64,000 bases of DNA, from contig CANEYR010000007.1 in assembly GCA_947444055.1 (NCBI GenBank), positions 40,724 to 104,723 on the forward strand, written 5' to 3'. The notes beneath the pieces were generated by a model. The model was not told the origin of the DNA and did no database searches. It saw nothing but the letters and a program-made list of their open reading frames with translations. The stretch's first letter is position 1. The number at the start of each line of letters is the position of its first letter. Shown piece by piece: positions 43,896 through 50,295 of the stretch. Made by a program: the position numbers and the translations under genes. Source of the stretch: Planctomycetota bacterium. GTDB taxonomy: Bacteria > Planctomycetota > UBA1135 > UBA2386.

Positions 43896-45053
43896 CTACA
43901 GCACGGCCCAGAGGCCGGGCCCACTGAGCACGGGCCAGCCGTTTGGTTGCCAGACGACGCCTTGCAGGCAAAACACATTACCGCGCAGGACGGGCGAGTT
44001 CGGAATCACCGTCTGCGAGACCAAGCCCGCCGCATCACAGATGCCAACGGCAGCGACCACCGGGCCGGCGATCGAGTTCACCCACACGTTGGTGAACTCG
44101 AAGACGGCCGGTGTCGACAACATCTCGCCCAGCACGACAGCGCCGATGCGAGGCGAGGCGGAGGTCATGCGCACGGTCGCGGGCAAGCCGGGAAGAACTT
44201 GGCTCGTCACCAACGTTGGAACTTCCTCGTCTTTGAACACACCGCCGACGCGCACGAACGGCGGCGTGGTGCCATTCGCGACCAAGCCGATGCGGGCAGG
44301 ATCAAACTGCAAGTCGCTGTCCCACGCTTCGAGCGGCGACACCGCGAGCCCAACGGCGGCGACGGAACTGATCGTCGTCGAGCCATCGCTACTGATGCGC
44401 CCCACACAATCGAACAGTCGCAGTGCCGGTTGATTGGCGCCCGAGAAGAACGTGCGCACCGCATCGAACCGCGTGTTGTAGAGCACGGCGCCGACGCCGA
44501 CAGAACTCAGCACGACGCATTCACTGATGGAGAAGTTCGCGATCTGAACCTGCAAGCCCGGCGCCCCAGCGAGCACACTGCGCCGCACGTGCACGGCGGC
44601 CGCGTTCTGCACTTCCAAGCCCGAGCGCGGACTCGTCGCGGCGACGGCGACCCCTTCGATCACGACCGACGCGGAGGTGTTGACGACGCGGATGCCGCCA
44701 ATCAGTCCGGGCAGGATCGGCGCGCCGCGCCCAACCAACACAAACCCGTCAGCGCCAGCGACCCCGTCCAACGAGATCGCATAACCAGCACCCGCGGGTG
44801 GCTGAATCACGCCAGACGCCGCGTCGAAGTCAAGCAGCACCCGCAGCGGCTTGTTGGTGGTGAAACCCACATGCACACCCGGTCGCACGACCACGATGGC
44901 TCCTGGCGGCACCGCGGCGATCGCGGTCGGCAAGCTGGTGAAGTTGGGGCTGGCACCACCGACCGTGTAGACGGGGCGTTGCGCGGGCAGAGTGGCGGCC
45001 AGCCAGAATGTGGCTAGCGCACCGACGAGGTGGCGGGGCGAGATCAGGGGCAC
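43896..45053 (-). CDS. secreted right-handed beta-helix-like protein
   Basis: GTG start VPLISPRHLVGALATFWLAATLPAQ; ...FTSLPTAIAAVPPGAIVVVRPGVHVG...; terminal PNGWPVLSGPGLWAVL. Confidence 0.7.
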   Translation of the reverse strand: MPLISPRHLVGALATFWLAATLPAQRPVYTVGGASPNFTSLPTAIAAVPPGAIVVVRPGVHVGFTTNKPLRVLLDFDAASGVIQPPAGAGYAISLDGVAGADGFVLVGRGAPILPGLIGGIRVVNTSASVVIEGVAVAATSPRSGLEVQNAAAVHVRRSVLAGAPGLQVQIANFSISECVVLSSVGVGAVLYNTRFDAVRTFFSGANQPALRLFDCVGRISSDGSTTISSVAAVGLAVSPLEAWDSDLQFDPARIGLVANGTTPPFVRVGGVFKDEEVPTLVTSQVLPGLPATVRMTSASPRIGAVVLGEMLSTPAVFEFTNVWVNSIAGPVVAAVGICDAAGLVSQTVIPNSPVLRGNVFCLQGVVWQPNGWPVLSGPGLWAVL

Positions 45054-45190
45054 GAGAAGACTCCTGCCGCGACAGTAGGTGCACACGGCGGGAACAGACA
45101 GTGGGCACGTGAAATGGTGGGCGTCACCGCCCCACTCCATTGAAACTTCACCGAGTCTTGACGAAGCGGCACCATCGGAGCATCGTTCGC

Positions 45191-45373
45191 CCACCGCTGG
45201 AGGAGCGGCCGCGATCAGTACTCGGTGCCAGGGTGACAACCCGTCTGGAGCACTGACGAAAGGCGACGGCCGCCGAAACCACGCAGGCTTCGTCAGCCTT
45301 CTTGGTTGGCCGAATGGGTCAAGACCCATCGGCTGTCGCGCCGGGCACCCGGTGTGGAGAGCCAGTCGCGTGG
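45191..45373 (+). ncRNA. lysine riboswitch (L-box) aptamer
   Basis: Core motifs in order: GGAGGAGCGGCCGCGATCAGTA, GACGAAAGGCGACGGCCGCCGAAA, TTGGTTGG...ATGGGTCAAGACCCAT, CTGTCGCGCCGGGCACCCGGTGTGGAGAGCC. P1 can form between CCACCGCTGG (45191) and CCAGTCGCGTGG (45362-45373). Directly precedes the lysine/DAP operon. Confidence 0.85.
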
Positions 45374-45379
45374 TGCAAT

Positions 45380-45415
45380 GGGCTCCCGCCGGCGGCGTCG
45401 TTTCTCCTGGAGCCC
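45380..45415 (+). promoter_or_regulatory. putative riboswitch expression platform: SD-sequestering hairpin
   Basis: GGGCTCC (45380-45386) pairs with GGAGCCC (45409-45415), which contains the GGAG SD 10 nt before the GTG at 45423. Confidence 0.6.
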
Positions 45416-45422
45416 TAATCCC

Positions 45423-46481
45423 GTGTCATCCACCGTTCCGGCGCCCGACCGCGCTGTTGCTGCTACTTGGTTGTTGGACCGCACCGAAGTGTTGTGTCGC
45501 GCCGACACCACCACCGGCCGCGAAGACCATGGCCTGCCCGCGCTGCGCAGTCTGCTGCGCGAACTCGGCGCCAGCGTCGAGCTGCAGCAAGTCGCGCCCG
45601 GCCGCCACAACGTGCTCGCGACGTGGGGCGTGCCTCGCCTCCTGTTCTCGACGCACCTCGACACCGTGCCGCCGTTCCTGCCACCGCGCCGCAGCGGCGA
45701 CTTCCTGCACGGCCGCGGCGCCTGCGATGCGAAGGGTCAGATCACGGTGCAGTTGGCGGCGATTCGCGACCTGCTCGCGCGCGGCCACAGCGGCTTCGCG
45801 TGGCTTGGCGTCGTCGGCGAAGAGACGGACAGTTGCGGGGCGATCGCCGCCATCGATCTCGCGCCGCGCCTGAAGACCTGTGTTGCGGCGATCAACGGCG
45901 AGCCCACGGACAACCGCTTGGCGACCGGCCAGCGCGGCGCCTTGCAACTGCGCCTGTTGACGAAGGGCATCGCGGCGCACTCGGGCACCCCCGAGCTCGG
46001 GCGCTCGGCGATCTGGCCCTTGCTCGAATGGCTGCAACGTCTGCGCGAAGTGCCGACCAGGGTCGATCCCGAGCTCGGCCCCGAGCTGTGGAATCTCGGC
46101 ACCATGCAAGCTGGCAGCGCCCCCAACGTCGTGCCGGCCCACGCCGAAGCGGTGTTGTTCGTGCGCTCCGTGCCGCACTCGACGTTCTCGACGCGCCTGC
46201 GCGAACTGGCGCCAGCGGAAGGTCTGGTCGAAGAACTGTCGTTCACGCCGCCCGAGCGCTACGCGACCGTGCCCGGCTTCGATCATGCGTTCGTGCCGTT
46301 TGGCAGCGATGCACCGCGCATGCGCGCGCTCGTCGGCGGCCAACGTGTCGTGCTCTGCGGACCTGGCAGCATCAAGGTCGCCCACACCCTGAATGAACAC
46401 ATCACCGGCGCCGAGATGGTCGCCGGCACCGAACGACTCATCGCCATTGCCGAAGCCTTTCTCGGAGGCCGCGTCTCGTGA
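45423..46481 (+). CDS. dapE: M20 family peptidase, probable succinyl-diaminopimelate desuccinylase
   Basis: LLFSTHLDTVPPF, GRGACDAKGQITVQL, WLGVVGEETDSCGA, AHSGTPELGRSA. Function inferred from context with dapD. GTG start chosen because the upstream ORF extension overlaps the riboswitch. Confidence 0.8.
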   Translation: MSSTVPAPDRAVAATWLLDRTEVLCRADTTTGREDHGLPALRSLLRELGASVELQQVAPGRHNVLATWGVPRLLFSTHLDTVPPFLPPRRSGDFLHGRGACDAKGQITVQLAAIRDLLARGHSGFAWLGVVGEETDSCGAIAAIDLAPRLKTCVAAINGEPTDNRLATGQRGALQLRLLTKGIAAHSGTPELGRSAIWPLLEWLQRLREVPTRVDPELGPELWNLGTMQAGSAPNVVPAHAEAVLFVRSVPHSTFSTRLRELAPAEGLVEELSFTPPERYATVPGFDHAFVPFGSDAPRMRALVGGQRVVLCGPGSIKVAHTLNEHITGAEMVAGTERLIAIAEAFLGGRVS

Positions 46482-47863
46482 TCGTGATGAAGTTTGGTGG
46501 CTCGTCGGTGGCGAACGCCTTGCGCATGCATAACGCCGCCGACTTGGTCGAAAACGCCAAGCACGCGCAGCCCTGCGTCGTGTTGTCGGCGATGGGCAAG
46601 ACGACGGATGCGCTGTTTGCAGCGGCCCAGGACGCGGTATCGGCAGTGCTCGAGGCGGCCCTCGGGCGCGTCGAGGCGGTCTTCGCCATGGCGACGACCA
46701 CGACCACCGAGCTGCTGCGCAACCCAACGCCGACGGTGGTGGCCCTGCACGCGATGCGCACCGATGTCGAAACGCTGCTGCGCGGCGTCGCCTTGTTGCG
46801 CGAGCTGACGCCGCGCACCCGCGATGCGATCGTGGCGCATGGTGAACGCATCGCGACCTTGGTGTTCGCCGCCTTGCTGGCCGAACGCGGCCTGCCGGTC
46901 GCCCATCTCGACGCACGGCTCGTCATGCGCACCGACGAGACGCATGGTGCCGCTACCCCGCTGCGGCCGATCCTGCGCGATCTCGTGCAGCAGCACCTGT
47001 TGCCGCAACTGCGCGCGGGCCAGATCGTCGTCACCCAAGGCTACGTCGGCGCCACGACGACTGGTGCCACCACCACGCTCGGTCGCGGCGGCAGCGACTG
47101 GTCGGCGGCCCTGCTCGGCGAAGCGATCGCCGCCGAGGAAGTGCAGATCTGGACTGACGTCGAAGGCGTGCTCACCGCCGATCCGCGCCTCGTCGCGGAC
47201 GCGCGCCCGATCCCCGTGCTCAGCCCCGCCGAAGCGGCAGAGCTCGCGGCCTTCGGCGCCAAGGTGCTGCATCCCGCCACCATTCAGCCGGCGGTCGATG
47301 CGTGCATTCCCGTCACCGTGCGCCACACACTGCGTCCGCACGGTGCGTTCACCACGATCGATCCTCGCCTGCGCACTCGCGAACGCGGCGGCATCGCGGC
47401 GCTGGCCTGCCGCGGGCCGGTCACGGTGCTGACGATGACCAGCACGCGCATGCTGGCGGCGAGTGGTTACCTGGCGAACCTGTTCGCGGCCTTCGGCCAA
47501 CTCGGCATCTGCGTCGACCTCGTCGCCACCGCCGAAGTGTCGGTGACTTGCACCGTCGAGCCCGAGGCGCCGATCGAACGGCTGACCAAGGCGCTCGCCG
47601 GGTTCGCGACGATCGATGTGGCCGAAGGTCGAGCCATCGTCGCGGCGGTCGGCGAAGGGCTGCGACGTTCCCCAGGCTTGTTGGCGCGCGCGGTGACGGC
47701 CCTGCACCCGATCAACCCCGAGGTCGTGTGCTTTGGCGGCAACGACCGCAACCTGTCGTTCGTCGTGCGCCTAGCCGAAGTGGGTTCCGTCATGAATCGC
47801 CTGCACGCCGAGTTCTTCGGGCAAGCCGCGCGTGCAAGCGCGCCAGTGCAGGAGGCCAGCTGA
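46478..47863 (+). CDS. lysC: aspartate kinase
   Basis: MIVMKFGGSSVANA; VTQGYVGATTTGATTTLGRGGSDWSAALLGEAI; IWTDVEGVLTADPRLV; C-terminal ACT region. Confidence 0.95.
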   Translation: MIVMKFGGSSVANALRMHNAADLVENAKHAQPCVVLSAMGKTTDALFAAAQDAVSAVLEAALGRVEAVFAMATTTTTELLRNPTPTVVALHAMRTDVETLLRGVALLRELTPRTRDAIVAHGERIATLVFAALLAERGLPVAHLDARLVMRTDETHGAATPLRPILRDLVQQHLLPQLRAGQIVVTQGYVGATTTGATTTLGRGGSDWSAALLGEAIAAEEVQIWTDVEGVLTADPRLVADARPIPVLSPAEAAELAAFGAKVLHPATIQPAVDACIPVTVRHTLRPHGAFTTIDPRLRTRERGGIAALACRGPVTVLTMTSTRMLAASGYLANLFAAFGQLGICVDLVATAEVSVTCTVEPEAPIERLTKALAGFATIDVAEGRAIVAAVGEGLRRSPGLLARAVTALHPINPEVVCFGGNDRNLSFVVRLAEVGSVMNRLHAEFFGQAARASAPVQEAS

Positions 47864-48597
47864 TGCCACCGCCACTGCGCATGGGCCTGTTCGGCCGCGG
47901 TCGGCTTGGGGCGGCGATCGCCGCTCAGCTCGGCGATGACCTCGCTTGGCAAGTGACCCGCGAACCACCGCCCGCCACGCCCGTTGACGTCGCCCTCGAA
48001 GTCTCCAGCGGGTCGACGGTCACGGCCCGCATCGAGTGGGCGCTCGCGACGCGCACGCCACTCGTGATCGGCAGCACCGGCTGGGACGTTCCCGATCTCG
48101 CGCCACGCATCGGCGATCGCATCGGCGTGGTGACCGCTCCCAATTTTTCGCTCGGCGTCGCGCTGATGCGGCGCTTCTCGCTCGTGCTCGCGCGCTTCTG
48201 CGCCAACGACGAAGCCCTCGATCCGTACCTCATCGAACACCATCAAGCCAAGAAGCACGACGCGCCATCGGGCACCGCCAAGCTGCTCGCAGCGACCATT
48301 CTGAACGGCTGCCCGCGGAAGCTTTCGTGGGCGATCGGCGGACCGCTGCAGAAAGACCAACTGAGTGTCGCGGTCGTGCGCGCCGGTTCGACCTACAGCC
48401 AACACCGGGTCGGCATGGATGCACCCGCCGAAGTGCTCGAGCTCATGCACACGGCGCGCAGCGCGGCAGCGTTCGTCGACGGCGCCTTGGCCGCGGCCCG
48501 CTGGATCCAAGGCAAGAAGGGTGTGTTCACCATGGATGACGTCGCCGCCAGCGTGCTCGATCCGCTGTTTGCAGGCCTCGCCGGAGGTGCCGCATGA
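47863..48597 (+). CDS. dapB: 4-hydroxy-tetrahydrodipicolinate reductase
   Basis: MGLFGRGRLGAAIA; LVIGSTGWD; APNFSLGVALM; YLIEHHQAKKHDAPSGTAKLLA. Confidence 0.93.
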   Translation: MPPPLRMGLFGRGRLGAAIAAQLGDDLAWQVTREPPPATPVDVALEVSSGSTVTARIEWALATRTPLVIGSTGWDVPDLAPRIGDRIGVVTAPNFSLGVALMRRFSLVLARFCANDEALDPYLIEHHQAKKHDAPSGTAKLLAATILNGCPRKLSWAIGGPLQKDQLSVAVVRAGSTYSQHRVGMDAPAEVLELMHTARSAAAFVDGALAAARWIQGKKGVFTMDDVAASVLDPLFAGLAGGAA

Positions 48598-49487
48598 AGC
48601 TGCCGCTGCAAGGCCTCGGCGTGGCGCTGGCAACCCCGTTCACCGAAGACGACGCACTCGATACCCAAAGCCTCGTGCGCCTGGTCCAGCATGTCGTCGC
48701 TGGCGGTGTCGACTTTGTCGTGGCGCTGGGGTCGACCGGCGAAGCTTCGATGCTCAGTGAACAGGAACGGGATCACGTCGTCGCCACGACCCGTCGCCAC
48801 TGCGCAGGCTTGCCGATGCTGGTCGGCACCGGCGCAATGTCGACCGCGCAATGCATCGCGTGGACCCGCCGCGCCGCCGAACTCGGCGCCGCCGCCGCCC
48901 TCGTCGTGGTGCCGCCGTACACCAAGCCGACGCAGGCTGGCATCGTCGCCCACTTCACCGCCATTGCGCACGCTGTGCCGACGCTGCCGCTGGTCGCTTA
49001 CAACGTGCCGTCGCGCGTTGGCACCAACCTGCTGCCAGCCACCGTGCGCGAACTGTGGGCGATCCCCACCGTCATCGCGATCAAGGAGTCTTCGACGGAT
49101 CTGCAGCAGATCGCCCGCATCGTGGCCGACTTGCCCGAAGGCCGCACGCTGCTCGCCGGCGATGATGCGCTCGTCGTGCCAACCATCGCGGTCGGCGGCA
49201 GCGGCGTCATCTCGGTCGCTGCGAACGTCATCCCGGCGGCGATGCGAACCATGCTGACCGCCGCCCGCAGCGACGACTTCGCCAGCGCACGCCGTCACCA
49301 CGCGCGGCTGCTGCCCGTATTCGAAGCGCTCAGCAACGAACCCAATCCCATCCCGATCAAAGCCGCGCTGGCCATCGCCGGCATCTGTGCTGCCACCGTG
49401 CGCTTGCCGCTGCTGCCCGCCGCCACAGCGACGTGCGAACGTTTGCGCCTGGCGTTGTCGCGCCTGACCGAGGCCGCCCATGCATGA
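48594..49487 (+). CDS. dapA: 4-hydroxy-tetrahydrodipicolinate synthase
   Basis: LGVALATPFTEDDALD; ALGSTGEASMLSEQE; YNVPSRVGTNLLP; AIKESSTDLQQI; GDDALVVPTIAVGGSGVISV. Confidence 0.96.
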   Translation: MKLPLQGLGVALATPFTEDDALDTQSLVRLVQHVVAGGVDFVVALGSTGEASMLSEQERDHVVATTRRHCAGLPMLVGTGAMSTAQCIAWTRRAAELGAAAALVVVPPYTKPTQAGIVAHFTAIAHAVPTLPLVAYNVPSRVGTNLLPATVRELWAIPTVIAIKESSTDLQQIARIVADLPEGRTLLAGDDALVVPTIAVGGSGVISVAANVIPAAMRTMLTAARSDDFASARRHHARLLPVFEALSNEPNPIPIKAALAIAGICAATVRLPLLPAATATCERLRLALSRLTEAAHA

Positions 49488-50295
49488 CTTGGAACTGGCG
49501 GCGTTCTTCGAGCGCGCCGACGAAGTGCTCGCCACCGACCCCGCCTGGCCGCAGGCTCACGCCGCCTTGTTGAGTGCCCTTGAGCTCGGCCGCGTGCGCG
49601 CGGCACAACGCGGCGACGACGGCGTCTGGCGCGCGACCTTGTGGGTGAAGCGCGCGATCCTGCTCGGCTTCCGGCGCACGGAGCTTTCCGCGATCGACGC
49701 CACGCCGTTTCCGTTCTTCGACAAGACCGCGTACCCGCCGCGCACGTTCACGCTCACCGATCGCATTCGCCTCGTGCCCGGTGGCTCGGCCGTGCGCCGC
49801 GGCGCGTTTGTGGCCCCCGGCGTGGTGGTGATGCCGCCCGCCTACATCAACGTCGGCGCCTGGGTTGGTGCTGGCACCATGGTCGACAGCCACGCCCTCG
49901 TCGGTTCTTGCGCGCAGATCGGCGCCAACGTGCATCTCTCGGCCAGCGCCCAAATCGGCGGCGTGCTCGAACCCGCGCACAAGAGTCCAGTCGTCATCGA
50001 AGACGGCGCCTTCGTCGGCGCTCTGTGCGGCGTGTTCGAAGGCTTTATCGTGCGCGAACGCGCCGTGCTCGCCGCCGGTGTCGTGCTCACCGCGGCAACC
50101 ATCGTGCACGACCTGGTGCAGCAACGAACCTGGCGCGGCGAAGTGCCAGCCGGTGCGGTCGTCATTCCCGGTTCGCGCAAGGCTGTCGGTCCCTATGCGG
50201 AAGAGCATGGCTTGCACGTCACGACACCGCTCATCGTGAAGTACCGCGACGAACGCACCGACGCCGCGACCGCGCTGGAAGCGGCCCTACGGTGA
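49480..50295 (+). CDS. dapD: tetrahydrodipicolinate N-succinyltransferase
   Basis: Hexapeptide repeats: VRRGAFVAPGVVVMPPAYINVGAWVGAGTMVDSHALVGSCAQIGANVHLSASAQIGGVLEP. Confidence 0.94.
   Translation: MHDLELAAFFERADEVLATDPAWPQAHAALLSALELGRVRAAQRGDDGVWRATLWVKRAILLGFRRTELSAIDATPFPFFDKTAYPPRTFTLTDRIRLVPGGSAVRRGAFVAPGVVVMPPAYINVGAWVGAGTMVDSHALVGSCAQIGANVHLSASAQIGGVLEPAHKSPVVIEDGAFVGALCGVFEGFIVRERAVLAAGVVLTAATIVHDLVQQRTWRGEVPAGAVVIPGSRKAVGPYAEEHGLHVTTPLIVKYRDERTDAATALEAALR

Follow-up and report, generated by a model that had tools for sequence, protein, structure and literature searches.

The operon dapE-lysC-dapB-dapA-dapD of a Planctomycetota genome is preceded by an RNA element that is very probably a canonical member of the RF00168 family, a lysine riboswitch controlling these genes. 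In the window, i.e. the whole stretch of 64,000 nucleotides analysed, cmscan aligns positions 45190-45372 (+) with the complete RF00168 model (1-182 of 182) at 84.9 bits, with E-values of 8.4e-23 (601 bases searched) and 9e-21 (64 kb window). The gathering score of the family is 30 in Rfam release 15, the database scanned against the window. All other Rfam families remain below their own gathering scores in the 64 kb, and the genome contains a single RF00168 copy. A match to sR14 at 45136-45181, with 16.1 bits against a gathering score of 38, is regarded as a chance match. The original prediction had called a lysine riboswitch at 45191-45373, in a planctomycete-like host, and had proposed a comparison with the RF00168 gathering threshold. 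This comparison was run, the threshold is exceeded by a wide margin, and the full-length match confirms the call. The conserved sequence blocks listed in the prediction are all present in the order given and the host genome does belong to Planctomycetota; the element is located where predicted, with cmscan boundaries one base off.

Highly conserved positions in the class are G9, A10, G11, G12, G14, C15, A23, U28, G69, G77, C78, C79, G80, A81, G114, A126, A127, U140, G141, G163 and C166 (PMC3764141). The window aptamer keeps the identical nucleotide at 21 of these 21 positions (Thermotoga maritima numbering), as mapped by eye via the cmscan alignment and the Rfam consensus. Like the class at large, it combines a full-length match with five helices around a junction, an L2-L3 kissing loop and a location upstream of DAP-pathway genes; it differs from known examples by its high G+C content. 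No evidence speaks against the assignment of the aptamer to RF00168 and, judged from its sequence, it would bind lysine.

The secondary structure and the kissing loop are supported by covariation among 23 aptamers, namely that of the window, 13 from the same family, a single one from another family of the order, one from a planctomycete of a distant family and seven from acidobacteria. Over the whole structure, 81.2% of the cells pair, versus 67.7% in shuffles and 35-48% in slid controls, and 198 cells are changed on both sides, versus 73.8 in shuffles. Changes on both sides occur in 42 of the 60 pairs of P1-P5, a number reached by none of 500 shuffles. The outer pairs of P1 align weakly (64% of cells). 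In the five pairs of the kissing loop, 85.6% of the cells are paired, with 20 both-side changes versus 6.3 in shuffles and a covariation score of 0.495 versus 0.206. Relatedness inflates these counts, yet the slid controls retain the same relatedness and drop far lower. Unconstrained folding of the whole leader did not recover the aptamer and gave an ordinary energy (z -0.71), and the covariance model and covariation were used instead. It could be imagined that the element is a decayed or ligand-shifted relic that lost lysine sensing, given that leaders diverge fast among relatives and that the element is missing from two genomes (G011 and G030) that have retained the operon. Intact class-conserved positions, covarying helices and kissing loop, and the fact that lysine is the product of the downstream pathway make such a relic highly improbable.

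Table 1. Features of the riboswitch, its leader and the downstream genes (window coordinates)
Feature	Position	Strand	Details
Lysine riboswitch aptamer (RF00168), P1-P5	45190..45372	+	cmscan; covariation among 23 aptamers
P1 closing helix	45191..45373	+	45196-45200 with 45362-45366; sequence and cmscan alignment
P1 extension	45191-45194 with 45370-45373	+	CCAC with GTGG; sequence and cmscan alignment
L2-L3 kissing loop, L2 side	45234..45237	+	TGAC, pairs with GTCA 45292-45295; alignment columns 47-51 with 104-108
Conserved aptamer 3' block	45356..45363	+	GGAGAGCC; cmscan alignment
Proposed anti-sequestor	45359-45363	+	GAGCC within GGAGAGCC, can pair with GGCTC 45381-45385; folding
Anti-Shine-Dalgarno strand, proposed 5' arm of sequestor	45380..45386	+	GGGCTCC, 7 pairs with 45409-45415; counterparts in G003 and G004
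Shine-Dalgarno-like element in proposed sequestor	45409..45415	+	GGAGCCC, with GGAG at 45409-45412, 10 bases upstream of the start codon
dapE-like M20 deacylase	45423..46481	+	GTG start, 352 aa; Pfam Peptidase_M20 and M20_dimer (PF01546/PF07687) above cut-off
lysC, aspartate kinase	46478..47863	+	TIGR00657, 327.9 bits, above cut-off
dapB-like	47863..48597	+	TIGR00036, 93.5 bits, below cut-off of 122; syntenic in relatives
dapA	48594..49487	+	TIGR00674, 277 bits, above cut-off
dapD	49480..50295	+	NF008808, 289.6 bits, above cut-off

The genes downstream of the aptamer are closely packed, and profile matches to dapE-like, lysC, dapB, dapA and dapD sequences agree with the DAP/lysine operon proposed originally. 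The best model for LysC is that of lysine-sensitive aspartokinase 3 (NF006570), with 419 bits for a cut-off of 455. The product of the first gene is 57-82% identical to its counterparts in relatives within the family; its matches to ArgE/DapE models are below the curated cut-offs, so that the name dapE rests on the protein family and the gene context. The remark that the dapE frame runs through the RNA is right in part: it applies to the mechanical ORF, which opens at a TTG (45306) within the aptamer, whereas the start shared with congeners is the GTG at 45423. The in-frame ATG at 45378 has no counterpart in the congeners G003 and G004, while a GGAG located 7-10 bases upstream of the GTG is common to the window and both congeners, and this GTG is therefore taken as the dapE start. 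A mechanical start call that runs into riboswitch RNA is a warning for annotation. On the minus strand, an ORF of 477 codons (43896-45329) opens in the complement of the aptamer, its true start being probably further in; its portion 43896-45056 has no match to a Pfam or NCBIfam family. The genome also encodes, at G000:C18:10739-12046, another aspartate kinase with 36% identity to the operon LysC, and many relatives likewise have a second one.

Control is rather likely to be exerted at translation, through sequestration of the Shine-Dalgarno sequence, and the switch is presumed to work in the OFF direction. As a cis-acting L-box, the element would lower expression of the five DAP/lysine genes at high lysine levels. 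Binding of lysine to the five-helix aptamer would stabilize P1 and occupy part of the 3' block GGAGAGCC. The anti-Shine-Dalgarno strand would then be free to pair with GGAGCCC, hiding the Shine-Dalgarno sequence of dapE and blocking translation of this first gene of the operon. When lysine is scarce, the GAGCC of the 3' block would pair during transcription with GGCTC or with nearby pyrimidines, leaving the Shine-Dalgarno sequence open.

Several folding results bear on this proposal. With the aptamer enforced, the unpaired probability is zero for all four Shine-Dalgarno bases. The window, G003 and G004 have a common sequestor geometry, whose outermost base pair reads G-C in the window and C-G in the two congeners. 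In transcripts starting at 45354 and ending at 45385-45404, folding favours the GAGCC-GGCTC pairing (-9.6 to -18.9 kcal/mol), and in transcripts extending up to 45422 the sequestor is still unformed in the best fold. At equilibrium the sequestor prevails even with the 3' strand of the aptamer free, and an ON state would thus depend on folding kinetics. Compared with shuffles, the three-way switch pattern has p 0.24 in the window and, among 19 leaders, nothing is significant once the number tried is allowed for. The sequestor alone, shared with the two congeners, is weakly above chance, with p values, uncorrected for the 19 leaders, of 0.13 in the window, 0.055 in G004, 0.04 in G008 and 0.005 in G003. 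Leaders of other genera differ from that of the window.

Transcription termination, intrinsic or Rho-dependent, is a less likely mode of action for the riboswitch, with a minor share of the probability. A G+C-rich hairpin does follow the window aptamer, and a planctomycete from a different family (G086) has a lysine riboswitch with a terminator-like hairpin and its T run behind it. The hairpin of the window (45380-45415) is followed by TAATCCCGTG, which has no T run, and the terminator scan found no intrinsic terminator between the aptamer and dapE. A further point against termination is the GGAG within this hairpin, suitably spaced ahead of the conserved start codon.

The riboswitch is rare in Planctomycetota. 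It is found in 14 of the 34 genomes of the window's family, in 17 of 154 genomes of the order and in 4 of 393 genomes of the phylum sample, where one of the four matches is below the gathering score and where stricter filters may miss weak copies. Within the family, it is always located upstream of the LysC gene of this operon: 14 of the 17 genomes with the operon LysC have it, versus none of the 17 genomes without (Fisher's exact test, p about 5e-7, the related genomes not being independent). The three exceptions comprise G011 and G030, where the operon has a complete leader with no detectable RF00168 match, and G022, where a contig end is too close to tell. Contamination is ruled out as the origin of the planctomycete copies: they come from 14 genomes within a single family, and some of the contigs concerned are 436-506 kb long. 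Weaker RF00168 matches of 52.4 and 40.5 bits occur in a third family of the order (G450:C76:11868-12056 and G449:C175:2208-2394); at the G450 locus (L146:869-1057), a dapE-like and then an asd-like gene lie downstream, as in Holophagae. A 93-base match in G221 (C2:507220-507312), far shorter than the 182-position model, falls slightly short of the gathering score with 27.9 bits.

Outside Planctomycetota, the nearest relatives of the operon LysC belong to Holophagae (Acidobacteriota). RF00168 is present in 7 of the 11 acidobacterial loci scanned, some of the others being cut by a contig end, and five Holophagae loci (L018, L020, L021, L023 and L072) display the arrangement riboswitch-dapE-asd-lysC-dapB-dapA-dapD. 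These operons share with the window the aptamer family, the dapE...lysC-dapB-dapA-dapD order and a LysC of the same clade, and differ by the asd gene between dapE and lysC and by another leader between aptamer and start codon. In the LysC tree, the operon copies of Holophagae and planctomycetes form one clade (SH-aLRT 100), separate from further LysC sequences of planctomycetes and of acidobacteria. A topology constrained to unite every planctomycete LysC is rejected with p-AU 0.0003, and one uniting every acidobacterial LysC with p-AU 3e-22. Because a single clade is rejected for either phylum, riboswitch and operon were probably inherited together and moved horizontally as a unit between Planctomycetota and Acidobacteriota. 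Whether the history was richer is an even call: a mobile riboswitch-dap operon unit would have crossed between the two phyla with its sensor kept and its expression platform rebuilt repeatedly, the aptamer 3' block serving as a Shine-Dalgarno decoy.

Shared ancestry without transfer, with riboswitch and operon already in the common ancestor of both phyla and lost in most lineages, is an unlikely alternative to this horizontal movement. Loss can also yield a patchy distribution, and the LysC tree is unrooted. Against such a history, the other LysC lineages of both phyla sit elsewhere in the tree, and the presence of the element in only 4 of 393 phylum genomes would require very many losses; the rejection of a joint planctomycete or acidobacterial LysC points the same way, though ancient duplication and losses could also explain it. 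A branch (97/98) of the four-gene tree has the window's family entirely to one side; G019 and G028 split from the rest of the family in both this tree and the aptamer tree. In the aptamer tree alone, these two genomes group with Holophagae; since the four-gene tree does not place them across that branch from their family, a second transfer is not claimed. The relatives of LysC, many of them from Acidobacteriota, also include a metagenome-assembled genome titled Bordetella parapertussis (CALQCC020000002.1, L051), a title that may be a mislabel.

A 2017 survey of lysine riboswitches places them in Firmicutes, Gammaproteobacteria, Thermotogae, Fusobacteria, Actinobacteria and Tenericutes, as well as in Acidobacteria and Beta- and Deltaproteobacteria, with no mention of planctomycetes (PMC5584792). 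The prediction that a planctomycete host would extend the range of the class is consistent with this survey, although the class was already wider than the prediction states, comprising Acidobacteria, Fusobacteria and Actinobacteria, among others. The order dapE-lysC-dapB-dapA-dapD is likewise not among the survey operons that were compared. A single riboswitch before a lysine biosynthesis operon, as in the window, is described in the same survey for Candidatus Solibacter (Acidobacteria) and Thermotoga, but the operons differ, being asd-lysC in the former and asd-dapF-dapA-dapB-dapD-lysC-lysA-amidohydrolase in the latter (PMC5584792). Literature searches for lysine riboswitches in planctomycetes yielded no dedicated paper; the Rfam sequence list was outside their scope, and the element is therefore not presented as the first in the phylum. 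As far as the searched literature shows, the planctomycete element extends the documented distribution of this textbook riboswitch by one phylum and leaves the understanding of the class unchanged. It also provides a good candidate for the co-inheritance of a riboswitch and its operon across phyla.

A different context for the same aptamer family appears in G086, where a lysine riboswitch of 73.7 bits is located at C4:138661-138835 (L112:1062-1236). Literature searches found no paper on a lysine riboswitch of the LysW aminoadipate pathway, and the ‘lysW’ and ‘lysX-lysY’ named in the 2017 survey are transporters (PMC5584792). The arrangement is seen in this one genome and is absent from the one relative of the order examined. 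Downstream of the G086 riboswitch (L112:1345-6505) lie lysW-like, lysX, argC/lysY, lysZ, lysJ-like and lysK genes, which correspond to the LysW aminoadipate route to lysine and not to the DAP route; LysX, LysZ and LysK are above curated cut-offs. The terminator-like hairpin that follows this aptamer, with its T run, spans positions 1277-1297 of L112.
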